Source: Polytrichum commune
Taxonomy: Eukaryota > Streptophyta > Polytrichopsida > Polytrichales > Polytrichaceae
Assembly (NCBI GenBank): GCA_950295325.1
Contig: OX485804.1
Location: forward strand, 50,530,001-50,594,000
Length of the DNA: 64,000 nucleotides
Direction of reading: 5' to 3'
Positions 12,018 through 62,723 of the stretch are shown here, in pieces. Each line of letters begins with the position of its first letter. The first letter of the stretch is position 1. The notes under the pieces are model-generated. The model made no database searches, was not told where the DNA came from, and worked only from the letters and a program-made list of their open reading frames with translations. Made by a program: the position numbers and the translations under genes.

Positions 12018-12995
12018 ATTACACATAGTTTGCCATATAGGAACCAGCCTTTTTTTTAGGGGCTAAATATAGCCAGAAGACTACAAAAAAAAAGGCATGC
12101 GAAAAAACCTTGTTGATGGAACCCTGTTTACATTGGCCATGGTGCCAAAACGTCCACCTCATAAGGTGGGCGGGTGCCACTTAGCCCCATTATGCACATG
12201 GGCATGGCCGAGGTGTCGCCCTCCATGTCCTATCTTAGCGATGGTGACCTACTGGGCGGCGCCCCATTGCGAAGTGGACCCCGCCATCATGATTTCTTGT
12301 CGCCGGCCTTCATCGTCCCCAACGACCATTTCTTGTGCTCTGTGAATGGTTTTCGCCCATTGCGCGCCTTCATCCTTGCTTCATCGCCAATTTGAGCTAC
12401 AGAGCTCCAGGGTCTCATCGCCTTGGATGTGTCTTCGTTGGGAATCGCCTCTCCAGTCTCTAGCAGCTCGCCTCCTTTCTCCATTTGCCCGCAGCCCACT
12501 CCTCCTCCTTTCTTGAGCAATGATACCAATGTGAATGTTGTACGCATGTTGTTAGTGGGGTAGTGGGGTAGTGGGGTTGATGGAGGAATGAAGGCTTGCA
12601 CTGTTGTAGCTGTTGAATTGCGACCTTGAGTTTTGAATACGGCTTGATCAGCAAAATGCGGACCATCGACGACATGCTCACAAAATGGCCATTGCCTCCC
12701 TCACCTTCCATCCTCCTGCTGGCTCTCATTGTTTCTTGTTGTTTGTGCAATGCAATTGAATTTATTCAATTTGGTTTTCTGCAATTGTGGGAGAATTCTA
12801 ACTTACTCAGAATTGGTTGTGGCTGAAGGGTGTTGGCCTTTGGGTGATTGGGAAGTTGGGATCTGAAGGGCTTGAGGGCTAGGCAGATTCCTTGGTGCTC
12901 GCTTTTGGTGGCTTCGCTGGGCGAGGCAGATCTCCTGCATTTTCGCCGTGGCCGCCCTCTTTGTCATTGTTGTTGGTCGCCCTCTTGCCGCCTTC
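12018..12995 (+). other. GC-richer leader region upstream of the hAT transposase
   Basis: Base composition shifts to GC-richer DNA from about 12120, continuing to the transposase start. Its open frames overlap on both strands and resemble no family, so I treat it as the 5' non-coding part of the hAT element. The element's true left terminus was not found. Confidence 0.4.
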
Positions 12996-13195
12996 TTGTG
13001 CATCTTGTGCATCTTGTGCTTCTTGTGCATCTTGTGCTTCTTGTGCATCTTGTGCATCTTGTGCATCTTGTGCTTCTTGTGCATCTTGTGCATCTTGTGC
13101 TTCTTGTGCATCTTGTGCATCTTGTGCATCTTGTGCTTCTTGTGCATCTTGTGCATCTTGTGCATCTTGTGCTTCTTGTGCATCTTGTGCATCTC
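12996..13195 (+). repeat. 9-bp minisatellite (CATCTTGTG/CTTCTTGTG)
   Basis: Roughly 22 tandem copies of a 9-mer alternating CATCTTGTG and CTTCTTGTG. Because the period is a multiple of three, all six frames stay open and produce spurious low-complexity peptides. It lies about 140 bp upstream of the transposase ATG and is probably transcribed leader or promoter-proximal DNA. Confidence 0.9.
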
Positions 13196-13196
13196 C

Positions 13197-13330
13197 CTGT
13201 TCGATCCCGTAGCCGCAACATTAACCAGCAACCTGTTCGATCCTGTAGCCGCAACATTAACCAGCAACATTAACCAGCAACCTGTTCGATCCCTTCTTGT
13301 GCACTCGCCGCCCTGTTCGATCCTGTAGCC
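13197..13330 (+). repeat. ~36-bp repeats containing the 13-mer in reverse orientation
   Basis: Repeated CCTGTTCGATCCYGTAGCCG followed by CAACATTAACCAGCAA. The 13-mer ATTAACCAGCAAC occurs three times (13220-13232, 13256-13268, 13269-13281). It is the exact reverse complement of GTTGCTGGTTAAT, the unit of the arrays in transposase intron 2 and downstream of the gene. Confidence 0.85.
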
Positions 13331-13333
13331 GCA

Positions 13334-16300
13334 ATGTCGGCGGCCTCCTCCACCCCATTGTCGAAGGCTCTCAAGGCCAGGAGGGCCACCGTCCTTGAGA
13401 GCTATTTCATTAGCTCGCGGAATTCTGCCAACTCTGGCCCTATCATTATGCTTGATCCATCCCCTCGGAAGCGCGCAAAAGTCGATTCATCTGCCTCTTC
13501 ATCTGGCAACAAAAGTCAGGAGGATTGCCACACCCCCGCAAGAGCTAATGTGGCCGTTAAGCTCATCTGCCCTGGTGGCCTACCATCCAACCCAAATCCC
13601 GGTTCCTCCTCCTTATGTGTCGAGTTTGAGTCTGATCTTGTGGAGGTGATCAATGGGGTTGACTCTGAGGTACCTGTAGCCAAGAAAAAACAGAAAAAAT
13701 GTAAAGGTAAGGAATCTGCTAGTCGTAGGTGTCAAGATAATTGGGCTCTTGCCCATCCATGGGCAGAAATGTTGCGGGCTGGGAAAGGATCTGAAGTGGA
13801 CAGGGTTCAATGCATTGTGTGCACGTCTGTGAAAGGCAGACCTGTCGTGATGGGTGCTAAATCCGATACCCTTGAAAAACACGCTGGAAAAAGACAGGCA
13901 AAGGTTGATCTTCCACACTTGAATGTGAAAAAAGACGAATACTACATCAACCCTAAGTGTGGCCATCTCAAGGCTGTTCCTATCTACAATGCCCAATCCT
14001 TGAATCGGCCAACTATTCTCCAGCAAGTAAGTGTCTTCCACCTTAGCCATGTTTTCTCTTTTCATATTTTCTTATATGCCTTTCTTGTGTGTATCTAAGA
14101 TCTAACTTGCACATTGCTTCATTGTAGGTGCAAAAAGAGTTCAAAGGAGATAAAGCGCGGAAGATTGCACAATTTGCAACGGTGTTTCATATGCTCCAGC
14201 ATGGCCGCCCCATGCTGGAGTATGAATCCATGCGAGAGTTGTTCACTTTTTTGAAGATGCCCCACTTGAGCAAGAAACATTGGGGAGACAACTCCGGATG
14301 GTTGATGGCTGAATATCTCTATGCCCAAGTTATGCAAAAGGCAAGAGAGGTTATTCATGGAGGTAAATTTCTTAGTATAAGTGTGGATGAGGTTACTACT
14401 GTAGACAATCAGGCTTGGATAAGTATCCATGCCTACGTTGTCCAAGATTTCTACCGCACTCCTATATTGGTGTCGGTGGAACGTCTCACGGAAGGGGCCA
14501 CTGCTCCAAAGCTCGCTGAGGTGATTGTTGATGCGTTGTTTGTTCACGGGGGTCTAACCTCCCAGCATCTCCTATCCAAATTCGTATCATTTGGGGCGGA
14601 TGGCGCTTCAGTTTTCCAGGTAAGTTTTTTTCGCCTTCTTCCCTTAGTTGTTGGTTAATGTTGTTGGTTAATTTTGTTGGTTAATGATGTTGTTTAGATT
14701 GCTGGTTAGTTGGAGGTGGCAGTTGCTGGTGCCTGATGTTGTTTAGTAATGCTGGTTAGTTGCTGGTTAGTGTTGCTGGTTGATGTTGTTGGTTAATGAT
14801 GTTGTTTAGTATTGCTGGTTTATGTTGCTGGTTAATGTTGCTGGATGATGATGTTCGTTAATGATGTATGGTAGAATTGCTGGTTAATATTGCTGGTTAA
14901 TGTTGCTGGTTAAAGTTGTTGATTAGTTGTTGGTTAATGTTGTTGATTAGTTGCTGGTTAATGTTGTTGATTAGTTGCTGGTTAATGTTGTTGGTTACTG
15001 TTGCTAGTTAATGTTGCTGGTTAATATTGCTGGTGGATATTGCTCGTTAAAGTTGCTGGTTAATGTTGTTGGTTACTGTTGCTAGTTAATGTTGCTAGTT
15101 AATGTTGCTAGTTAATATTGCTGGTGGATATTGCTCGTTAAAGTTGTTGGTTAATGTTGTTGGTTACTGTTGTTGGTTAATGTTGTTGGTTACTGTTGCT
15201 GGTTAATGTTGCTGGTTAATATTGCTGGTGGATATTGCTGGTTAATGTTGCCGATTAGTTGCTGGTCAATGAATCAATTTGTGGATGTGGTCTAATGTTC
15301 AATGTTGGAGGTGGCAGGGTGCAAGGTCAGGTGTGACCAGGCTCTTACAAGATACGATTAGCCCCCACATGCATGGGGTTCATTGTGTCAGCCATCGCAC
15401 CAACCTTGCGATCAAGGAGCTCTCGTATTTGCCGGTCATCGACAAGATCGAGAACCTCTTGCATAACTTGCACAAATACTTTGCAAGGTCTCCCAAGAGA
15501 CACATCGAATTTACGAGGCTCTCAGAGGTAATGCAAACCAAAGGTCTAAAGATCATAAGGAACATCAAAACGAGGTGGTTGTCCATGTTATCACCCTTGA
15601 AGAGGGTGATGTCTGAGTATCGAACCTTGGTTCATAAGATGCACCAAGATGGGCTCGATGGAACATCAACATCAGCGGCAAGGGAGGTAGCAATTGGTAA
15701 CTACAACTTCCTTGTAGACATCTCTATCCCTATTGCCTTGGCCGGTTTTTTACCATTGCTTGAAACAGTTCACTATCTTGTGAAATTCAGCCAACAACAA
15801 GACATCTTCATATGCGACTATCTTGCCGCGGTGAAGGTCTGTCAAGGTCAACTCTACGAGCTCTATTGTGATCCAGTTTCCTCTTTCAGAAGTGATTCAT
15901 TTCGTGAGTTCACAGATTTGATTAGTGGCCGTCATGACAGCATGTCTCTGTCATGGGTGCCCGGAGCCTTGGATGTGAATGAAGCCGCATGTGAGTATGT
16001 TGTCTTCAAGTGTGGGCCTTTCACCCATTCAGCCACTATGCCTAACGGAGATGGCGGCACCCAAACAGTGTCAAGGGAGGCATTCAAAGACATTGTGGAC
16101 AATGTCAAAGGCTCTTGCACAGGTATGGCCATGTTTGTGCAATTCTGGTCCTTGTGTAATTGTTTTTGTGGTATATGTTGCTATGCAATATTGGGGATTA
16201 TGTGGCTAACCATGAAGTTGGGTGTTGTGGTGGATGTGGTAGGGGCCGCAGATCGGTTGATCAAGGAACTTTCAAGCCGCTTTCCGGCCTTGAACTTGAT

Positions 16301-16820
16301 GGATTCTCTGGGGGTTGTCTACCCCCAGTATTGGCTCCAACCTAATGTTGATGAGCTATTTGAGGCACACTTCAAATGCTTGAAGGACCACTATTGCTAC
16401 GAGAAGAAAGTTGGTGAAGTGTACTCACCACCCATGCTGGAGATGGCAGCCTTGAACCACGAGGCAGGTTTGTTCAAAGGGGCAATGAAAGCAAACGCAG
16501 CTGATGCCATGCGTAAGCCCATTACTATCAACCCCCTAACCAAGCTTTGGCGGAATCTAAGTATGTCACAAGTGTTGAGGAGCAGCTTTGGCGAATGGTT
16601 TAAGGTGGCTGAATTGGCAGCTGTGCAAGTGCTTGGGTCCGTTGAGGACGAGCGCACATTCTCAAATGTGGCATTCACAAAGTCCAAATTACGTAACCGT
16701 TTGAGTGAGCACTTGGCAGCCTGTGTAGGCATATTTAGCCAAAAATTTTACAAGTTGGAAAACTTTCCTTTTGAGAAGGTTTATGAGATATGGCATGCGA
16801 ATCACAAACGAGATTGCTAG
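13334..16820 (+). CDS. hAT superfamily transposase, apparently intact
   Basis: Cut-and-paste DNA transposase of the hAT superfamily. Exons: 13334-14026, 14128-14619, 15318-16122 and 16252-16820, all phase-compatible, giving about 852 residues. A BED-like zinc finger lies near the N-terminus (CIVC, then TLEKHAGK). Candidate catalytic acidic residues are the D of SISVDEVTT, the D of FGADGAS and the E of VEDERTFS. A hAT-type CVSHRTNLA (CxxH) motif and TRWLSM follow the second D. The C-terminus carries the dimerisation segment (ERTFSNVAFTKSKLRNRL). Introns 1 and 2 are clear. The third (16123-16251, 129 nt) keeps the frame if retained, but would insert a hydrophobic stretch unlike transposase, so I favour splicing. 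There are no internal stops outside introns. Terminal inverted repeats and target duplication were not identified, so autonomy is unproven. Confidence 0.87.
14640..15275 (+). repeat. 13-bp minisatellite in transposase intron 2
   Basis: Long degenerate array of GTTGCTGGTTAAT / GTTGTTGGTTAAT units filling most of the intron 14620-15317. Variants include GGTGGATATT and GTTACTGTT blocks arranged in higher-order repeats, suggesting recent local amplification. Confidence 0.9.
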
Positions 16821-32289: not shown

Positions 32290-32932
32290 TTAGGGCCACT
32301 TTGCACATGAGCCAAGAGCCGTGACCGTGAAGTTGTGAGAGCCCAAGAGAAAGTGTGCAAAGGCCGTCTCAAGACACCTCCAAAATCATGTAGTGCGGTG
32401 GTTACGGACCCTCAAGTGTAGTGTAAAGTCATATGGGATCAGAACCTCAACCCAATGCTATTTCAATGAGTTTCTATTCATGCGGTCCTCACACATGATA
32501 GAATAGAATAGAATAAGTCAATGGTGGTTACGGACCCTCAAGTGTAGTGTAAAGTCATATGTGATCAGAACCTCAACCCAATGCTATTTCAACGAGTTTC
32601 TATTCATGCGGTCCTCACACATGATAGAATAGAATAGAATAAGTCAATGGTCGTGAGCATTCAGAGTGCCATGGTCTCCCAATTTTGTGTTAGGCCTACC
32701 TCCAAGAGGTGGTTTTTTAAAATAATCCAAGTGACCATGAAACATGATCCATTTGATGCCATGTAAGGAATCCATGTAGACTTTACATCCATCTTGCATT
32801 CACATACTCCGTCGGTCCCTCGAGCGTAGTGTGAAGCAGCGAACTTACACTGGCTCTGCCTTTTCCACCAATGAGAGTGCTTGAAGTGTACTGGTCACGG
32901 GCTCTCAGTCTCGTGTGTGAAGTGGCCCCTAG
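32290..32932. mobile_element. ~640-bp MITE with GGCCACTTCACACACGA-type ends
   Basis: The left end TTAGGGCCACTTTGCACATG, followed by GAGCCGTGACCGTGAAG, is inverted at the right end (GGTCACGGGCTCTCAG then GTGTGTGAAGTGGCCCCTAG). It encloses a tandem 126-bp duplication. No target duplication could be recognised. Fragments of the family lie at 11366 and 18477. Confidence 0.75.
32397..32648 (+). repeat. 126-bp tandem duplication
   Basis: Two nearly identical consecutive copies (32397-32522 and 32523-32648) starting GGTGGTTACGGACCCTCAAG and ending with GAATAGAATAGAATAAGTCA. The very low divergence implies a recent event inside an older MITE. Confidence 0.92.
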
Positions 32933-42480: not shown

Positions 42481-43316
42481 AAGGGCAGGGCAGGGCAGGT
42501 GCAGTGAGATGAGGTAGACAAGCTCCAGACTTTACTTGGATTAGTAGGAGAAGATCATCGCCATCCGGCAGTCCCGGCAGCTTGTCAATGATCGTCTTCA
42601 GCTACTAACTAAAGCTACTTAAGTTAATTCTTCCCACCCGGGGCCTGCCTCCTGTCGCCTGCACTTCTTGGACTGAAGTAGAATAGCGTAGCTGCAGCCT
42701 AGACGAGCTCGAAGGTCGGGGAGAATGTGAGGGAGGTAGACTTGGGCGTGTTGCGGCCTCCCCAGCACTCTCCCTGCCAGCTCTCTCCCAGCTCCCCCTC
42801 CTCCGACCTCCTCTCTCAACCCACAACACTCGCAATGACAACATCCGCATCATCGTCTTGCTCATTCCATGCTCCTCGACCCGCATCACATCAACACCAA
42901 CCTCCTCAACAACAACCTCTTGCTGCGCAATCCCCCAACAGCAACAAGAAGATCAAGCACAGCAAGTGCAGGCCACAGACACGACTACTGCCGGAGGAGG
43001 ATGATCAACAGCATCAGCAATATCACCAGCCTTTGGTCCTTGGGAGGTTGAGTGCTCGTGCGGCTTCCTCTTCTTCTTCTTCATTCCCATCTGCTCAGCT
43101 TTGTGTAGCGTCAAACTCTCATCTTGAGGTGTGTTGGGGGAAGCTCAAATGCAGGGAGCAGAAACTGGAGGAGTGGGTTGGGGGTCAACAGATGAGGTGG
43201 AGGTTGGCAGGGGGATGTGAAGAGGTTGAGGCTGTCGGCAGGGTAAGGGTCAAGGGTAAGGGAAAGGGGAAGGAGAGGGTGGGGGATCTGGTAAAGGAGG
43301 GTCGGCACCGGAGGTT
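42481..43316 (+). promoter_or_regulatory. Promoter/5' leader region of the RING-H2 gene with a long upstream ORF
   Basis: GC-richer DNA preceding the predicted start. An open frame of 197 codons (42727-43320, internal ATG at 42835) is Ser/Gln/Pro/His-rich and has no family signature. It ends in the overlapping ATGA at 43317-43320, so its stop overlaps the main start codon. If in the mRNA it would be a long upstream ORF in another frame. It could instead be chance. The main frame is closed by a TAA at 43257 with no other ATG before 43317. Confidence 0.45.
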
Positions 43317-46300
43317 ATGAAACGGAGAGTGAGGGAGGAGCCTGCTCCGTTGTTGTTACTGCTGTGGCCTCATGGTGATGATGGTGTGAGGAGGACGACT
43401 TGCAGGTCGCCCTTTTCTAATGGCTGCTCCTGCACCTGGCTGCTCGTGCTCCTTTGCTGTTTCTTCTTCTTGGGTATGTTTGCAATCTCACACTCTGGGT
43501 AGAGAGGGAGAGATGTCTGATCATTCCTCGCGGATCAGACAAAGTGATCTGGTGAGGAGTGTGTGAAGGGAATGTGTGTCTATGCGTGTGAGTAAGTTGT
43601 GTCTGAGATGCGTGGAAATTTGCAGCAGGAAGAGATTATTTTATCCGCCCCAAGTGAAGTGAAGTGACGTAAAGTTTCTTAGGCCGAACCACACATTCAG
43701 AAAATGATGTAATACACCGATTGTTGACAAAGTTCTTTGTTTATTTCCATCGGGAAGTGATATGCCCTCCACCCTGAGTGGCTGGAGATTCCTTGGGTGA
43801 ACCTCACATTCAAACACATCGACCTCATTCAGAAAATGATGTCATATGGTGTCACGGATTTGTTACAAAGTTCATCATTGATTATGATTTCTATTGGGAA
43901 GAGATTATGCGCTTTACCCGGTGGACGTGAAGTTTCTTAAGGTAAACCTTACATTCTAACACATTCAACTCATTTAGAAAATGATGTCATATGGTCCAAT
44001 TTTACAAATTGTTGACAAAGTTCTTAATCGATTTCTCATTGAGAAGAAGTTATGCCCTTCATCCCAAATGAAGGTTCCTTGGGTGAACCTCACATTTAAA
44101 TATATCCACCTCATTTTCTGGACCAGGGTAGAGATTGTGGGCAGAGTTCTTCATTGGTTTTGAAATACATTGGGAAGAGGTTATGCCCTCCACCCGGTGG
44201 GAGTGAAGTTTCTTATGGTGAACCTTACGTCTAAACAAATCCACCTCATTGAGAAAACGATGTCATATGGTTTAACAAATTGGCTACAAATTTCTTCATT
44301 GATGTGCATAATCTCTTCCTGATGGACATGACGTGAGACTTATGGCCGTTGGGTGCATCTGCCTGAGCGGGCTGGTGGCCATGCGTTGGGTCCACCCACT
44401 GGACATTATCTAATTCTTTAAAGCTCGTGCATTAGGGTAAACCTCGTGCCAAGAACAAACCCAGAGTCTGCGAGTAATGTCTCCCTTGGGAAGCTGCAAT
44501 TTGAATGCCGGACGAGGTAGCAGCGGGGAGCTTGGTTGTGCATGTCTATTGGGCCATGACCTAAAACCTCGAGTTAATCCCCTTTAATCTAGAGCTCAAG
44601 TTGAGAGCTCCAACTTGTGATTTGGGAAGCTTTCATCCAAACATCTATCTATTGAGAACTTGACCAATTTTCAGGTTCTCAATAGTTCAAGCAAGGTAAA
44701 AGTGGCCATGCTCAAAGTGAAATATTGAGGGGGAATGGTTGTAAACAAAGGAGAATCCATGACAAACCAAAGCCCATTGGCTTGGGATACGAGAGCTCAA
44801 AATTCACGACATTCCTTAGGAACCTCTATGAGGTCGGAGCTTACGATTTTGACTGAGAGCTTGTTGGATTTGTCACACATGTCAAGGCACCATCTTAGCA
44901 TTGTAAGCCCGGTAAAAAGTTCAAGCTCTCGAGATTTCAATGGTAAAGTGGACTCGAGTGAACGAGCAGGAGCAAGAGGCTCCTCATAAATGAGAAGGCT
45001 CCTCTCTTCAAGCTCTCAGCCTTCAAGCTCTCAAGGGTGTAAAGGGCCTGATTGGAACTTTGAGTCCACTTCATACAACTTGCCCAGTTTCGTTCTAGTA
45101 ACCCTAAGTCTGGCTGTGCAAATTGACTTTCTGGCAAGTTTCACTATGAACCGTGAATCACTTAGCGGAATGAAACTTTAGACTTCTCAAATGAGTTGAA
45201 GGTCATTCTGAAAATGGTGCTTTGCTGAAATGTTGGGTGGAGTTTTGCAGGTTGCCGTGCTGGTCAACCTCTAAGGTCCCTTTTGGAGGACTCTAAAGCT
45301 AAGCTAAACATCACTGTGAAGGCAGACAATGTATGCTTGAGGGATGCTGTACCAGAAGGAAAATTCAATTACTATGCACTAGACATTTCGGGTTGTTTTG
45401 AGGACCCCACAAACAGCTACTTGGCTGTGGAAGCGCGGGTTTACCCTGCTGATCCTGGATGCGAGAAGTGCCAGGAATGGTCGATGCTTGTAAACACGGA
45501 AGGAGAGCTGCCGACTTACGACGATTTATCGGATGCAGATAGTGGGACCTTCTTTGATTTTGTAGGTAAGTTCCGTTTGAAAAGGTTAGGATGTAGTTGG
45601 GGCTTGAAAAGGAGTTTGTGTATTTGTGATCTTACACACAAGCAAGTACATAGTTCCTTGTATTTTTCTCAACACCTGAAAACTAAATGCCCGTGAAGAA
45701 AATAATATATATTTGTTGAGGTCAGGGATAGAGGAGGAATGGAAATCAACAGAATTTAGTCGCTAAAACTATCAACAAGATTCCTTTTGGCTGGGATTAG
45801 CTTCATTGTGATCTGTGGCGGTAGTTAGAAGTATCATCCTGGGCAATTAAAGATCATCATATGTGATTCCAATTGGGAATTAGAGCATAGGCAATTGAAA
45901 ATGCTTGTTGTAGAGGAGCAATGCAAGGTGGATCTGTCTATTGGAATCTACACCCTGCCTACTATTCAACTTCAAGTAGTAGTCCCTTCCCTTCAACGAT
46001 ACCCTAATTTTTTTCTTTTATGGTTGATTGAGTATGACCTATCTCTTGCAACAACACACGTCCATTATGATATTTAAAGAATCTGCAAATGTGGTAATCT
46101 AAAGGATTGGCGTTGCTGTTTCAGACGCGGAACATCTCCGCCAATATATGCGCTTGGATCTTGCCCTGGGGTTGAACCAGTCAAATTCATGGGTTGTTGG
46201 TATACACAGCTCCAGCAGTGAAGTAAATTACACTTTGAAAGCCTGGTGCTCTGGTACGAAAGCCTTTCCAATTTGTCCCTCTCCATTAATTATCTGTGGA

Positions 46301-49300
46301 CCTTGACAGTCACAATTTTAATGTTCCATCCATCAACATATTTGATGACAAATGTGATGTTCTTTGACGCAGTATCAAAAGGGTGTAATTTGAGCTGCAG
46401 TGATCCGGACAGTGGTCCTTGTGTCAGTCAAGAGACCTGTCGATGTATCAGGGAAACAAATCAAGAAACTTGTGAAATAGGTCAGTTACCTGTCACTACA
46501 CTTTTATAGAAATCTGTCCAGGGTAGTTGCTTGCAATTGCTTGACATATACCTTCTTATTCCTCTTTAAGATTTCTAGGCACGATTGTGATATATCTACA
46601 TTGAAGTTGTTAGGATGTTCTGTAATCTTACACATCTGCCGTACTTGTCTTATTGGCTTCTTTAAGACGTTCTCTCTTTTGGATGCAGATGTTGATCTGC
46701 TTCCAGATGGAGACGACAGTGTGGCTAGAAATGGACTGTCAATTTTTCATGAGAATGAGGTGCTGGAGTACAGTGAATGGAAATACTTCAAATTTGAGGT
46801 ATTGCTCTCTACTTTCCTCTCTACAGTTTCAACAAGCTTGCTTCTAGTGACAGAGATTGCTTGTGTACGTTGTGTGGAATAGTTGTTAAGGTTTTTTGAG
46901 CATAAGATGGATGGGACACCTGCAACATGTGAGAGGTGAGACAATTCAATGCCTGTTATGGCCATCTTTTGTGGCGGTAGTAGTTACCCCTCCAAATTGC
47001 ATAATAGTGACGCACCATCAATTTATGTGGTGGTGCAGAGGCCAGGGTAAGAAAACAGCACCTAGAAACAGCAGAATACTGTAAGCTCAGGTCCAATAGG
47101 CATGTCTCTGCCTAATTTTAATTTCCATGTCAACTTTTAAGATTTTCCAACCAATCACATGATGACGTCTGACACCTCATTTGGTTCAATCACGATTTAC
47201 GCCTAATCTGATCTAAATGTAGGGAACATTTTTCCTTCCTGCTCAAAATTTAACTAAGATCGGTAATAAAAAGTTTGTGAAGTTGCCCTGGTGACAAGGT
47301 CTTTGGCCTAGATCCATGATGCCTAGGAAGTGACTCATGACTCTTGTATTCCTACAACTCAAGCTTTCAACGTTCAGACTTCTGTAGTTCCATGTACCTC
47401 CTCCATTGTGCAGTATTCCTTGATCTTCCAGAAAAAGAGAACTAGTTATCATTTTTATTATTATATTGAAGGTGCAGTTGAGAGTACTGATGTGGTGTTG
47501 TTCTGCAGGTGGCAAATAATGAGAGTCGCACACTTGTACAGTTGGCTAGAGCAAGAGGGGATGTTATTCTGTATGTCAAGCCTTATGATGGGGAAGATGA
47601 AGCAGGCTCACTGCCAATTGAAGGTGATACCCAGTATTCAGACCTTGCAAGTTTCCAGAATCGGCTTAGCCATCACAATGTTTTTGTCAACGGGGCTGGA
47701 ACATTCTACATCGGAGTCTACAACATGGACCATTGTGTGAAAGAGAATACAACCTTCAATCTTACGATCACCATTGCTACTCCAGAGTATCCCATGAGTT
47801 TATGTCCCTTGAATTGCTCCTATCCCCAGGGTGTGTGTGTAAGAGACAATGCTTGTGAATGTGAACCTGGCTACGGTGGAAACTTCTGCGCTGGCTGTAA
47901 GTTTCCGAAACTGTTCCTTCCATATAAGTTTATGACACTGTAGCTCCATATATGGATATATTAGGGTTTTTGAAGTGTCTTCACTTTTAAGGTTGAATAT
48001 TGGTTTTGTCACACCATGTAAAGGTTGTGTGTAGTTTTAGGCCACTTTATCTGACATATAGACAGGTCTTAGATGGTGACATTGTCTGATTAGCCCACTT
48101 CTCTTAGGATTTTAAACACTTGGTTAGTATGAAGGGATTAGCAAATCTATATGGAGGCCATAGCCATTTTCTTCATAAATTTTGGAGCTCATATGAAAAT
48201 CTTATTCATTGTCAAATAAAAGATTCTCTTTCTTCTCACCTGTTTATAAAGGTCCTCCCAATGATATTGACTATTGAACCTAGAATAGTTAACTAATTCT
48301 GAGTATGTAGTCCAATCTCTTTAAACACACGACTTTTTGTTGTCTGTTCTTGGATCCACACTTAAATCACAAAGCATCCCAATATAGCTGTCTGATCAAG
48401 GTAAGGCATTGAATTAGGCCCACTTACCTTAGAATGTGAAGTATGAAGTTGTTATTTAAGTGTGTAGATTTCAAAGTTGCTGACATGCCCATATTTGTGT
48501 CCAAATACAGCTCTATGGCCTGCAGCACCTTGGAAATCATACAGTGGTCAATTGCTGCCTGGTGAATGGGCCTATGTGAACTTGATGGCCAGTGAGCTTA
48601 AAGACTCTGGGAATGTCTCAGTGAAATTCACATCGATCGGGGGTCATTGTATACTGATGGCACAGCGAAGTGGTTACCCTACACTTAAGGATTATTACTT
48701 GAAGTTCTCAGATGAGCGATTAACTGCTACAATTTCCGACACTTACTACATCAACAGGGATTCCTTAGATGATGGGAATGTTATACTCGCTGTCTTCAAT
48801 GTCGACTATGACCAGCAAGGAGTATCAAATTTTGAAATTGCTATTCTAGGTAAGTCATTGTTCATATAGTTGTAATGACACTTTTGGTCATTTTCTAGGC
48901 TTACATAGGAGTTTCTATTACTTAATTACAAAATGTCAAAGTCTCCAACTCCTTTCCCTATTGCCACAATAGTATCACAACTTCCCAAATGTCATTTGCA
49001 AATTTCAGTGGATGTGGAACAAAGGTCATTATTATTGGTTGAGAAAATCTAAAGAGGAGGATGATTCTAGAGTTTTAAATGTGTTCATCATACAGCAAGT
49101 CAGTCTTTATTGAATGTTTTGGAGTATGTCTTGTGCTTCTGCAGGTGCTATAAAAGGTTTAAGCATATGGATTATTCTCTCAGCGGCCTTAGGAAGCTCA
49201 GTAGTTGTTTTAGTTGCAATGGGAACATTTAGATATATCATGCAGGAAAGGGGTCTGGAGGGAATGGATTCAGATGGTTTAGATTTTGAGGCAACACCGC

Positions 49301-50604
49301 ATGATATGGTATGTCTCCTCCAGGCATGTATACTGATCCTCGTGAAGCTGGTTATGTGATTGGCTTAAGACCACATTGGAATCTTGTTGCTTCAAACTCA
49401 TGCTTCTGAATTTCAACGTATCCATGTCTTGGTCTGATGTTTCTTGTGATATGGCAGGAAATGGTGGAAATGCGTTCTCTTGACAGAGTGGTTGTTAGTA
49501 CGTTCCCATTGTTGGCATATCAGGAAGGATTGTTTTCAAAAGAGGAGGCTGGGTATGTGACAAACTGTCTTAAGGATGATGGGAGATAGATATTTTGTTA
49601 TGGAGGTTTTCAGTGATATACTAAGCATTGGGTTGTATTTGATGTATCCTGTTCCGTTGCAGTTGGTGGGGAGGAAGGAAGGTATCAGAGTTGGGAATTT
49701 TCGTTGGGAGTTTGTCCCCTTAAATTTCCAATTGGTTGTTTTGCACTCAAACCAATAATTTCATTCCGCTTGTGGTGCATGCATGGAGCAAGTGCTTGAA
49801 TAAAGGGCAATCTATTTTGGTTCTTTGAGGGCCAAACTCATTTTTAGCACCTCCTAGCAAGCCAAAATGAGTTTGACTCTCAATGAACAAATATAGAATG
49901 TTCTTTGTCCAAACCTCCACTCTACCTCCAAGCATGCACCAATAACTTACCTAGCATGGATGGTCTTGTAAGCAAAACAATGAACTCCCGACCAAAATTC
50001 ATGATGGGTTAGAAAATAACTCTATTGTCAGATCACCTTGTCAACTTGGCCATTACTGTATTCCTCTCTTTGCTGGTTATCCATCAGATTTATACACATC
50101 TCTCATCTGTAATTTGTGATTATTTGCAGATGTGCTATATGCCTCAACAATTACCACATTGCCGAGATTTTGTGTAGAATACCTGCCTGCAAGCATGCGT
50201 TTCATGTGAAATGCATTGATAAGTGGTTTCAAAAAGACCCCAGTTGCCCACTCTGTCGAGGCTCTTTACAGGATATTCAGTCGAGTCGACATTCTTTGGG
50301 TGCCAATGTGGCGCCTGAGTGGTGGCCACCGGAATCCATGTCATCAAGCAGCACTTGTGACAACAAATTGGTGGTGGAGGGCTCGTCTTCAGGGGACGAC
50401 GCGTCCTCAAGTCATAGCCAGGACAATTTTCCTCAGGACAACCCAGCACCCCTCACTGCCAAGGACTACCAACCACTTCTTGTCAAAAAAGACTCCACTA
50501 GTTTAGGAAGCTCCTCTAGGTCAGCAGATTGTGATTCTACATCATTGAGTGTACAATGGCCGCGAAAGAGTGCTGCCAAAGTATCAATGCCACAATTTAG
50601 GTAA
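43317..50604 (+). CDS. Membrane-anchored RING-H2 E3 ligase with EGF-like ectodomain
   Basis: Likely transmembrane ubiquitin ligase with a lumenal or extracellular sensor region. Exons: 43317-43473, 45251-45565, 46125-46253, 46373-46480, 46689-46798, 47509-47896, 48511-48849, 49145-49308, 49458-49552, 50130-50604; all GT-AG with compatible phases, 759 residues. A hydrophobic signal sequence covers ~36-55 (WLLVLLCCFFFLGCRAG). The ectodomain has three ~100-residue modules with shared words (EWKYFKFE / EWAYVNL; FYIGVYN / ILAVFNV), separated by two EGF-like Cys clusters (~203-236 and ~372-402; CECEPGYGGNFC) and rich in N-glycosylation sequons. The transmembrane helix is ~520-545. The RING-H2 at ~603-645 fits C-x2-C-x15-C-x-H-x2-H-x2-C-x10-C-x2-C with the E2-contact W (CIDKWF). 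The tail is Ser-rich. The first exon rests on splice phase and signal sequence only. PA-TM-RING proteins are the nearest known layout, but no PA domain is seen. Confidence 0.87.
43640..44310 (+). repeat. ~140-bp tandem repeats in RING gene intron 1
   Basis: About five diverged units spaced 132-145 bp, each with CAGAAAATGATGTCATATGG, TTGACAAAGTTCTTCATTGA-like and GGGAAGAGATTATGCCCTCC-like words (units near 43698, 43830, 43975, 44114, 44251). Confidence 0.85.
44700..45190 (+). mobile_element. Possible solo LTR in RING gene intron 1
   Basis: AATATTGAGGGGGAA, resembling a polypurine tract at a retrotransposon 3' end, is followed by TGGTTGTAAAC, a plausible LTR start. AGCTCTCA-type words repeat in the following 400 bp. 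No coding region or second LTR, and no target duplication, was found. Confidence 0.25.
48135..48400. mobile_element. Arm of the foldback MITE family in RING gene intron 6
   Basis: GGATTAGCAAATCTATATGG, AATATCTTATTCATTGTCAA-like, TATTGACTATTGAACCTAGA and GTAGTCCAATCTCTTTAAAC occur in the same order as in the complete element at 60911-61476. The opposite arm is not evident. Confidence 0.65.
49670..50024. mobile_element. MITE in RING gene intron 9
   Basis: Second member of the three-copy intronic family. TTGTGGTGCATGCATGGAGC on the left and CTACCTCCAAGCATGCACCA on the right pair as inverted repeats, and TTCCAATTGGTTGTTTTGCA and GAAAATAACTCTATTG mark outer parts. The left limit is uncertain by about 20 bp. 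Confidence 0.75.
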
Positions 50605-60100: not shown

Positions 60101-62723
60101 ATGTTATGTCGTAACTTGATCTGCTTTCCATCTTGAATTAGGGCTATTCCACATGATTCTGCGCAAACTTGTGGAATATACATCATCTAATGACCATGTT
60201 GTGACAATCATCTCTACTTTATCAATCTATGATTGTGTCCTGATATTACTGCAAAATCCTCAACATCTTCCCTGTGCATTTTTGCTATAACTGCTAATCC
60301 CTTAGTGAGCAAGTGAGAAGTGGCATTTTTTTGCTCAATTCTGTTTGGTTGGTTAGAAACAAAGGTGGAACTGAAGGACCGCACCCAACAGGTCTCTGAT
60401 ACCAATGATGTTTCTGAGAGGTATATATGTGTTTTGTTCCATCAAATTTTCTAGCAGTGACATTGAATTGGTGGTTGATATATGGATGTGCTTAATTAAT
60501 CATCTTATATGACCAATTTTGTTGAGGAGCTGTCACTGATTACAGTGTTTTGTTGCTTACAGAGAGCCATTGTTTCTTCAAGACAAAGGTGACAAGTTCT
60601 TCAAGTAAAACTCCAAACCCTCAACCTTACATCATAGTAATCATGACATTTTTTACATGCAGTTGAGCCACATACAAAGAAATGGAAAGCTGAAAATCAG
60701 AGAGTTGTGTGTGTGTGTGTTTTAAGTCAAGCAGCTCTGATGATTCTCAAAAAGTGTCAATGTTGCACGCAGGGCGGGAGATTACAGAAGTGCAACAAAC
60801 GCATATTCAGATGCTATCTCAAAGGATGCTGCTATGCTGTTGTATCCACTTTAAATGTGTTTTATTTTGGACACATTTCTTGTAGGATATGAAACGCAGA
60901 ATTAGTGTGAGATGATTAGCAAATCCAAATCGCGCCTGTAGCCATTACCTCATAATTTTTGAAGCTCCTATGAATATCTTATTCATTAATGAAGATTTTT
61001 GTGCTTATTCAATGGTCATATAGGTCCTCCAACTATGTTGACTAGTTGAGCTTAGAATGGTTAGCAAATCTCTAGTACATAGTCCAGTCTCTTTTAAGCC
61101 TATCAATTTTTGGTGTCCACTTTTAGATCCACACCTAACCACACGCTACTCAAATATAGGAGTCCAGATTATTGCTATGCTGGATTGACACCTCAAAGGT
61201 ATGCGGATGTTAATTGGTTACTTTTTTTTTTGGGACCCCTATATTTGATTGGTGTGTAGCTAGGTGAATATCAAAGTTCAAACACCACAAAGACACATGT
61301 TTAGAAGAGATTGGACTACGTCCTAAAATTTCATTAACTACTCCACATTCAATAATGAATACAATTGGGAGGATCTATGTATTCAGTTAAGGAATCAACA
61401 ACACTTCCAATAATCATAACTAAGTGAGGGGAGGTCTGATTTTTGTTGATGTGTCATTGTAGATTTGCTAATGCAACCTAATGGTTTTTTGTTTATATCT
61501 AATTGGTAGAAGTTGGACAACATGAAAAACAAACCAAATAACACCCACATTAGAACCTGAATAGACATCCTTGACATGAGACTTTGGTAGCTGCTACGCA
61601 AATCGTGCAGCATGTAGATTGTATCTTAAGCAAGCTCAGGCTTGCATAGACGACTGTACAGCTGCCATTCATCTGCTCAAATCCGATGATGACATTTTCG
61701 ACTTGCAATGTGACATAATGAATGCTATGTGTTCGCAATATGTGAAAAGATATCGGGAGGACCCATCTGAAGGACTTGGGCTACTCTCATGTTTGACCCG
61801 ACAGCGAACACAGGGTAACGATCTTCGGACATTGAAAAACTCTGTAATGGCGCGAGTACTCACAAGGAAAGGAACGGCACATTGTATGCTTGGAGACCTG
61901 CAGAATGCTGTGGATGACTTTTCTCTGGTAAGAAGAAAAGAAGCACTTGAGTTAATTTTGCATAATTAATGAAACATAATATCACAGGCGTTGATGGTAT
62001 CTTACAGCCTCCTTAATGCTGCTTGACTAGATAAATTTCATGTACAAGATAAATTTGGCTCTACAAGATAATTTCTTGTAGAGCCAAATTCAGATACCAT
62101 CTGGCATTTCTGTACAGTCTCTCGCTTTTGTAATAGCAGAAGGGTTATGTGGAAACGACTACACTAAATAGTCTTATTAGTGTGGGCCACATTAGTTTTT
62201 TTCTTATGAAATTAACGTGGGTGCCTACTTTATTTTATGCTATTTTTGTCCTTTAATTAATACTCAAGGTGTTGATTGGAAGACTCCAAGAAGATCCAGG
62301 GTCTTGTCCACATATTTCCATCTTGATTACACAATTGGTGTGGCCCACATTAATTTTCAACCGTGCCAAATCTCTAGTTTTAGTTGAGTGTTGGCCACAT
62401 TGGTTTTTTTCCTAGGAAATTGATGTGGGTGTCTACTTTATTTTATGGTAGTTTTGTCCTTCAACTAATACTTAATATGTTGGTCTCCAAGACAACATGG
62501 GGTCTTCTGCTCACATTATCTCCACCCTGATTATAAAATTAGTGTGCCCCACATTAATTTTCCACTTACACTAATAGGACTATTTAGTGCTACCTTGCAA
62601 CTTTTATGTGGGTGGGATCCATGTCAACCTTAACTTTTGCAATGGCAGGCTCTCAAGCTGTTTCCTAAAAACCAAGCAGTAGAGGGCAGCTTGAAGGAGA
62701 TGCAAGAAAGGTTGCTCCCATGA
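57121..62723 (+). CDS. DNAAF4: DNAAF4/DYX1C1 homologue, dynein axonemal assembly factor
   Basis: Cytoplasmic co-chaperone-like factor that helps pre-assemble axonemal dynein arms; in a plant this points to flagellate sperm. Exons: 57121-57220, 57782-57909, 58480-58584, 58787-58861, ~59162-59215, 59390-59852, 60357-60420, 60563-60604, 60773-60838, 61591-61927, 62649-62723; about 502 residues (human ~420). An N-terminal CS domain covers ~1-80 (FKWQESESWVKIDVVL; VNSYPFLFQVDLAGEID; FFLVKKEEGLW). A charged linker follows, then the family's pre-TPR motif (PAPRKTARVSITFSPKALP) and TPRs (LQDKGDKFFKAGDYRSATNA; CYANRAACRLYLKQAQACID; RKGTAHCMLGDLQNAVDDFS). The last codons encode ALKLFPKN followed by a short helix and TGA. 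Exon 5 is uncertain: the first acceptor (59130) in the expected phase hits a stop after nine codons, so a later acceptor or a shifted donor is needed. Introns carry several MITEs. Confidence 0.88.
57981..58353. mobile_element. MITE in DNAAF4-like intron 2
   Basis: Third member of the intronic family: TTAGAGTTATCCTTTTAACA on the left, the inner pair GGTGCATGCTTGGAGGTGGT / CTACCTCTGAGCATGCACCA, and the decayed right end GAGCTAAGGGATTATTGT. It is oriented as the copy at 5396-5760 (shared ACATGACTTTTGGT on the left and GTATGCTAAACAACCAA on the right). Confidence 0.8.
59883..60076. mobile_element. 194-bp MITE in DNAAF4-like intron 6
   Basis: The left end GTTTATGGTATTTAGTGTCA continues to GTTATGCAATGTTATAA. 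It is inverted at the right as TTATAGCATTGCATAATTCC to CACTAAATACCATAAAC, about 45 bp of terminal inverted repeat. Related to 22709-22932 and fragments at 29290 and 31795. The flanking direct repeat is not clear because the ends themselves are palindromic. Confidence 0.85.
60911..61476. mobile_element. ~566-bp foldback MITE in DNAAF4-like intron 9
   Basis: The left arm runs GATTAGCAAATCC, CATATAGGTCCTCCAA, GTACATAGTCCAGTCTCTTT, ACTCAAATATAGGAGTCC. The right arm carries the complements in mirror order (GGGACCCCTATATTTGATTG, AGAGATTGGACTACGTCC, TTGGGAGGATCTATG, GATTTGCTAATGC). Single arms of the family occur at 11135, 24906, 48135 and 52650. Confidence 0.8.
62052..62090. repeat. Perfect 17-bp hairpin in DNAAF4-like intron 10
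   Basis: AATTTGGCTCTACAAGA (62052-62068) and its exact complement TCTTGTAGAGCCAAATT (62074-62090) are separated by TAATT. It is not associated with recognisable element ends. Confidence 0.85.
62162..62589. mobile_element. 428-bp CACTA-type MITE with 3-bp target duplication
   Basis: Begins CACTAAATAGTCTTATTAGT and ends with the complement of CACTAAATAGTCCTATTAGT. It is flanked by CTA on both sides (62159-62161, 62590-62592). The terminal CACTA and 3-bp duplication are diagnostic for the CACTA (En/Spm) superfamily. The interior is itself a diverged direct duplication (62190-62330 resembles 62390-62560). It sits just before the last exon of the DNAAF4-like gene. Confidence 0.9.

Follow-up and report, generated by a model that had tools for sequence, protein, structure and literature searches.

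Does Polytrichum commune encode a membrane-bound ubiquitin ligase that carries a large receptor-like ectodomain? The question is raised by a locus in a 64,000-nucleotide window of contig OX485804.1 (assembly GCA_950295325.1, positions 50,530,001 to 50,594,000), in which a predicted gene at 43317–50604 on the forward strand joins ten exons into a single open frame of 759 residues. From N to C terminus, the predicted protein consists of a hydrophobic leader, module A, EGF-like unit 1, module B, EGF-like unit 2, module C, a transmembrane helix, a RING-H2 domain and a Ser-rich tail. Such a layout had been proposed in a first-pass annotation of the window, and it is confirmed as a gene model with the coordinates unchanged, all ten exons and 759 codons accounted for and GT–AG borders at each of the nine introns. 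Judged from the sequence, the inner half of the protein is of a known plant kind, the membrane RING-H2 ligases of the ATL and RMR families, and the outer half fits no named domain family with confidence.

The gene model is well formed. The frame begins at ATG 43317, the first in-frame ATG past an upstream stop at 43257, with no further Met in exon 1, and its TAA stop codon ends at 50604. G+C content is 46.1% in the joined exons versus 34.2–43.3% in the nine introns. EGF-like unit 1 and module C each fill an exon of their own (exons 4 and 7), and both exons have symmetric 1-1 phase, as is usual in shuffled extracellular modules. No second copy of the gene was found within the window, where the best match outside the gene has E = 0.56. 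Two further features lie at its 5′ end. An upstream open reading frame (ORF) of 161 codons, low-complexity by eye, runs from ATG 42835 (42835–43320), and its TGA overlaps the ligase start codon (ATGA, 43317–43320). In the open frame enclosing it (42703–43317), Pfam finds nothing at E up to 0.01; if transcribed, the upstream ORF could control translation of the ligase. Within intron 1, a unit of about 140 bases forms a tandem array of four to five diverged copies at 43666–44306.

The RING-H2 assignment is firm. Pfam zf-RING_2 matches at E = 8.7e-12 (45.6 bits versus a cutoff of 27.3), and the pattern CxxC-13-PxCxHxxHxxCxxxW-6-CxxC occurs exactly and only once, over 42 residues from residue 603. 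By hydropathy, a transmembrane stretch is predicted at about residues 520–544, the most hydrophobic 19-residue window beginning at residue 523, and a linker of about 61 residues separates it from the RING. The linker contains a GLD-like motif, SLDRVVVSTFPLLAY, in which LD is kept and S stands in place of G, while Ser makes up 27 of the 114 residues after the RING (10.5% across the whole protein). Compared with solved structures, linker and RING together are closest to AtRMR1 (7bvw, E = 8e-14), followed by RNF38 (1.2e-11). The AtRMR1 alignment starts at residue 578 and crosses the exon 9/10 junction, which supports that join. Ile605 stands at the position of AtRMR1 Ile234. The rice RING-H2 protein EL5 (1iym), a 55-residue construct without most of the linker, matches at E = 3e-9. 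For the RING alone, AtRMR1 scores 43.7 bits and EL5 40.4 bits, so the score does not decide between the families.

The inner half shares several features with ATLs, namely the exact zinc-ligand spacing over 42 residues, PxC before the third ligand, IDxW after the sixth, and a transmembrane helix N-terminal to the RING. Between helix and RING, the GLD-like motif is a partial match to the ATL motif. The RING also keeps three single residues: Leu behind the second ligand, Phe ahead of the fifth and Pro beside the seventh. Six residues separate its Trp from the next Cys, as in EL5, which we take to be an ATL; the printed grapevine ATL motif has seven (PMC5133618). In the accessible text of a survey of 1815 ATLs from 24 species, the ATL domain is 42 residues long, the same Leu, Phe and Pro are conserved, and the GLD motif is present in about 82% of ATLs (PMC3161093). 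The same text puts at most several tens of residues, or none, ahead of the helix, reports no additional recognisable domain in these ATLs, and calls R-x-LP, a pattern that sits one residue before the third ligand, ‘frequent’ without making it a requirement (PMC3161093). Here, that site reads CRIPAC and the pattern is not kept. Further differences from ATLs are an ectodomain of more than 460 residues, with about 519 residues before the helix in the full model (a description of size and not a rule of membership), the EGF-like units, the lack of a GUB_WAK match, the S as first GLD residue and the nine introns. The first-pass annotation had contrasted this protein with ATL and PA-TM-RING ligases; for the inner half that contrast fails, as its ATL spacing, GLD-like motif, AtRMR1 match and Ser-rich tail are those of just that kind.

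Two other groups of membrane ligases invite comparison. ZNRF3 and RNF43 of animals are single-pass surface E3 ligases in which the ectodomain selects a receptor for removal. The RING of ZNRF3 is similar to that described here (9ozx, E = 1.1e-9), whereas their ectodomain is PA-like without EGF units and they act in the animal Wnt pathway. The APD (ABERRANT POLLEN DEVELOPMENT) ligases likewise combine a hydrophobic N terminus, a large lumenal region, a transmembrane helix and a C-terminal RING. No APD domain is among the 14 Pfam matches of the whole protein. APD proteins are listed under the code FHC11, taken here as RING-HC, and the term EGF is absent from the main text of that source (PMC6118397).

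The outer half is rich in cysteine and in N-glycosylation sequons. Its extent, about residues 54–516 (463 amino acids, with 20 cysteines), bears out the earlier estimate of some 460 residues, and all nine N-glycosylation sequons of the protein lie within residues 72–437, none after the transmembrane helix. Cysteines C205–C234 and C372–C400 both fit the pattern C-x3-C-x5..8-C-x5-C-x-C-x8-C, which did not arise even once in any of 20,000 shuffles of the 463 ectodomain residues, a result somewhat flattered by the definition of the pattern after inspection of the sequence. What had been described as EGF-like clusters are two EGF-like units, each a single six-cysteine module. Aligned to one another by hhalign, the units give E = 0.0088 at a probability of just 2%. 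Unit 1 alone matches no EGF model in Pfam; its matches to metallothionein and albumin I, all below cutoff, were rejected. In longer queries, the best EGF match is likewise below cutoff, with E = 0.013 in the whole ectodomain and E = 8.8 in the whole protein.

The three non-EGF modules stand in the layout as first described, but as copies of one another they are not supported, either by shuffled local alignments or by hhalign. With BLOSUM62, the local score was matched by 649 of 1000 shuffles for A–B, 763 of 1000 for A–C and 204 of 1000 for B–C; with BLOSUM45, the counts were 706, 950 and 64 of 1000, the last, again for B–C, being the best case. Weak Pfam matches of module A to G3P pilus-binding and TssC domains fall below cutoff and were rejected. 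For module C, Pfam gave nothing at E up to 10.

The most likely explanation is a type I receptor-like membrane E3 ligase, with itself or a bound partner as the substrate to be ubiquitinated and sorted to endosomes or the vacuole, a reading that we hold to be evenly balanced between right and wrong. In the lumen or apoplast, the partner of the outer part would be a ligand, either secreted or from the wall, a protein cargo or an adjacent receptor. The RING would recruit an E2 through Ile605 and place ubiquitin on the ligase itself or on the bound partner, which would direct endocytosis or post-Golgi sorting to the vacuole, and the Ser-rich tail is likely a regulatory, phosphorylated segment. Results on RMRs count in favour of this reading: according to the accessible text of one source, the RINGs of AtRMR1–4 are E3 ligases, AtRMR1 Ile234 is modelled at the E2 contact, and the substitution I234Y broke E2 binding, cut activity, and led to Golgi retention of an AtRMR1 C-terminal construct and of AtRMR2 (PMC12552968). 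The ectodomain would set what is moved or removed, like that of plant RMR receptors; in the animal ZNRF3 and RNF43, the ectodomain likewise sets what is removed. If the leader is left uncleaved, the ectodomain would still be lumenal, held by two helices. The description as a receptor-like RING-H2 protein with an EGF ectodomain is upheld by the gene model; the further suggestion of ligand or cell-wall sensing is not, and the sequence names no ligand.

Several results weigh against this reading. Scanned alone, EGF-like unit 2 matches EGF_2 at E = 8.6e-4 and 20.1 bits, close to the Pfam cutoff of 22.1 but under it. Module B resembles the PPC jelly-roll weakly and below cutoff (E = 0.017, 16.4 bits versus 25.9, scanned alone), and the match weakens with a longer query, to E = 0.064 in the ectodomain and 0.33 in the whole protein. 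AlphaFold models of single exons consist mainly of strands and are poor, with mean pLDDT (predicted local distance difference test) values of 45.2 for exon 6 and 53.2 for exon 7, too poor to use for deriving folds. The HMM and structure check that had been proposed for the three modules yielded this weak PPC likeness for B, nothing credible for A or C, and poor models for exons 6 and 7. Furthermore, no relative sharing the ectodomain was found in PDB, NCBIfam or the scans of viral and genome contigs. The five PDB sequence matches of the ectodomain (best E = 0.27) were rejected, and NCBIfam gave no match. In the viral contigs, pattern scans that detect close relatives only gave four matches for exon 6, nine for exon 10 and six for exon 7, none of them confirmed. 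Of 91 pattern matches of exon 7 in genome contigs, one was confirmed, over 28 residues at 50% in a Hymenobacter contig (L001), and was then rejected as chance: it rests on an exact eight-residue seed and lies in a 165-codon frame opposite a 1475-codon ORF. Foldseek with the exon 7 model gave no match at E <= 0.001; the rows listed were mixed (jelly-roll, GOLD, cupin, viral capsid and others, TM-score <=0.52) and were not used.

Two further points count against the same reading. Pfam, searched at E up to 10, shows no PA domain, although the HMMER filters drop most matches above E of about 0.1 and HMMs alone could miss a very diverged one; the cargo-binding part of an RMR is thus missing. The other point is the join between exons 7 and 8, for which support is limited to splice signals and phase. 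Intron 7 contains two in-frame ATGs, 49114 and 49126, from which the frame stays open into exon 8, and from ATG 49114, exons 8–10 read as 254 residues with the transmembrane helix, GLD-like motif, RING-H2 and tail. This is a plain ATL layout without the ectodomain, and such a short form would fit the N-terminal size of ATLs. The odds of the full-length model are lowered because of the intron 7 ATG.

Among the alternatives to a receptor-like E3 ligase, a sorting receptor proper is unlikely but survives best. Its outer modules would carry soluble Golgi cargo to the vacuole, and its RING would serve the receptor's own traffic, as in RMRs. EGF-like repeats, also present in vacuolar sorting receptors, count in its favour, as does the match of linker and RING to AtRMR1, the best in PDB, in which the LD...P linker is aligned and the E2-contact Ile is kept. 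The order of lumenal part, single transmembrane helix, presumably cytosolic linker, RING-H2 and Ser-rich tail, a type I arrangement, is common to the RMRs (AtRMR1–6), and in RMRs of plants other than angiosperms the RING is followed by a large Ser-rich domain (PMC5085694). On the other hand, RMRs carry an outer PA domain (PMC12552968), the domain not found here, and the present ectodomain is larger and includes EGF-like units. The gaps between RING ligands are 15 and 10 residues, as in ATLs, versus 14 and 11 in AtRMR1 as counted from its residue numbers (PMC12552968), a spacing that favours ATL over RMR. The linker of about 61 residues also contrasts with about 23 in the AtRMRs (PMC5085694).

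A cell-surface sensor, in which binding of a wall polymer or peptide by the ectodomain switches RING activity and starts ubiquitin signalling, is less probable again. It would suit the large, EGF-containing outer part and the nine N-glycosylation sequons. Outer domains do occur among ATLs: of 96 grapevine ATLs, one has GUB_WAK_bind and two have PA (PMC5133618), the first of these lending the sensor some precedent. Pfam recognised no known carbohydrate- or peptide-binding domain in the ectodomain, however, and switching finds no support in the sequence.

The full ten-exon model is more likely, on the splice signals and frames, than a split with a short ATL form. A false join, in which an ectodomain protein and a 254-residue ATL-type ligase started from ATG 49114 or 49126, which would have either a gene of its own or an alternative promoter, have been fused in the model, would agree with the open intron 7 ATGs, the plain ATL layout of exons 8–10 and the mostly intronless ATL genes of grapevine (PMC5133618), but it is improbable: the GTAAGT donor at the end of exon 7 agrees in phase with the exon 8 acceptor, the unspliced frame stops six residues on without a membrane anchor, the short gene would still hold two introns, and in-frame ATGs precede three of the nine later exons (4, 8 and 9), so that the one ahead of exon 8 can be chance.

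Table 1 Exons of the predicted receptor-like RING-H2 ligase gene, in window coordinates.
Feature	Position	Strand	Content
Exon 1	43317..43473	+	ATG start, long n-region, then hydrophobic leader (~residues 40-52), either a signal peptide or a signal anchor that stays uncleaved
Exon 2	45251..45565	+	Bulk of module A (residues 53-158); Pfam gives weak matches to unrelated domains (best E=0.17)
Exon 3	46125..46253	+	End of module A (residues 158-201)
Exon 4	46373..46480	+	EGF-like unit 1 (C205-C234); no EGF Pfam model
Exon 5	46689..46798	+	Start of module B (residues 237-273)
Exon 6	47509..47896	+	Remainder of module B, with weak PPC likeness, followed by EGF-like unit 2 (C372-C400, 47803-47889)
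Exon 7	48511..48849	+	Module C (residues 403-516); nothing in Pfam at E up to 10
Exon 8	49145..49308	+	Predicted transmembrane helix (~residues 520-544) and first part of cytosolic linker
Exon 9	49458..49552	+	Linker with GLD-like motif SLDRVVVSTFPLLAY (residues 577-591)
Exon 10	50130..50604	+	RING-H2 (residues 603-644, 50131-50256), then the Ser-rich tail up to the stop

Elsewhere in the window, the region 12994–16820 includes a probable transposase-like gene, with open frames at 14128–14658 and 15273–16820. Between these frames lies a 625-base array of a 13-base unit (14647–15271, about 49 copies), and a 9-base array of 22 copies spans 12994–13194. By eye we take the gene to be hAT-like; Pfam gave it no match above cutoff, the only match being 4HBT_3 at E = 0.0059, below cutoff. 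An open frame at 61580–61969 contains one tetratricopeptide repeat, matched by TPR_1 at E = 2e-6 with a score of 27.8 bits that just equals the cutoff, and is probably an exon of a tetratricopeptide repeat gene. A 126-base unit present in two tandem copies at 32397–32651, 98% matching, is apparently a recent duplication. Rfam and tRNA scans of the window gave no match.

How new is the architecture? On the sequence comparisons made here, the unusual part of the protein is the length and make-up of its outer region; the inner half and the presence of outer domains on RING-H2 proteins are already in print. No plant membrane protein combining this ectodomain, or EGF units, with a RING was found in the titles and abstract openings of the open-access literature, which is weak evidence of absence, and plant databases may well contain an unannotated family of homologues. 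The further step, to an undescribed class of plant receptor E3 ligases, is unlikely to be right as matters stand. In such a class, an ATL-type RING-H2 would be joined to a beta-sandwich and EGF ectodomain, an outside ligand or partner would set which membrane protein is ubiquitinated, and the whole would be an independent counterpart of ZNRF3 and RNF43; its odds are lowered because of the intron 7 ATG. The locus might conceivably also yield a short, ectodomain-less ATL form from that ATG, in which the ligase would be free of the sensor.

Receptor kinases are the main means by which plants sense what is outside the cell. A membrane E3 ligase with a large ligand-type ectodomain, if real, would be a direct route from binding on the outside to removal of a protein. 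Were the architecture confined to one species, it would amount to a modest domain shuffle. Its conservation across plant lineages would instead widen the ATL/RMR kind and offer a testable surface-sensing ubiquitin ligase.

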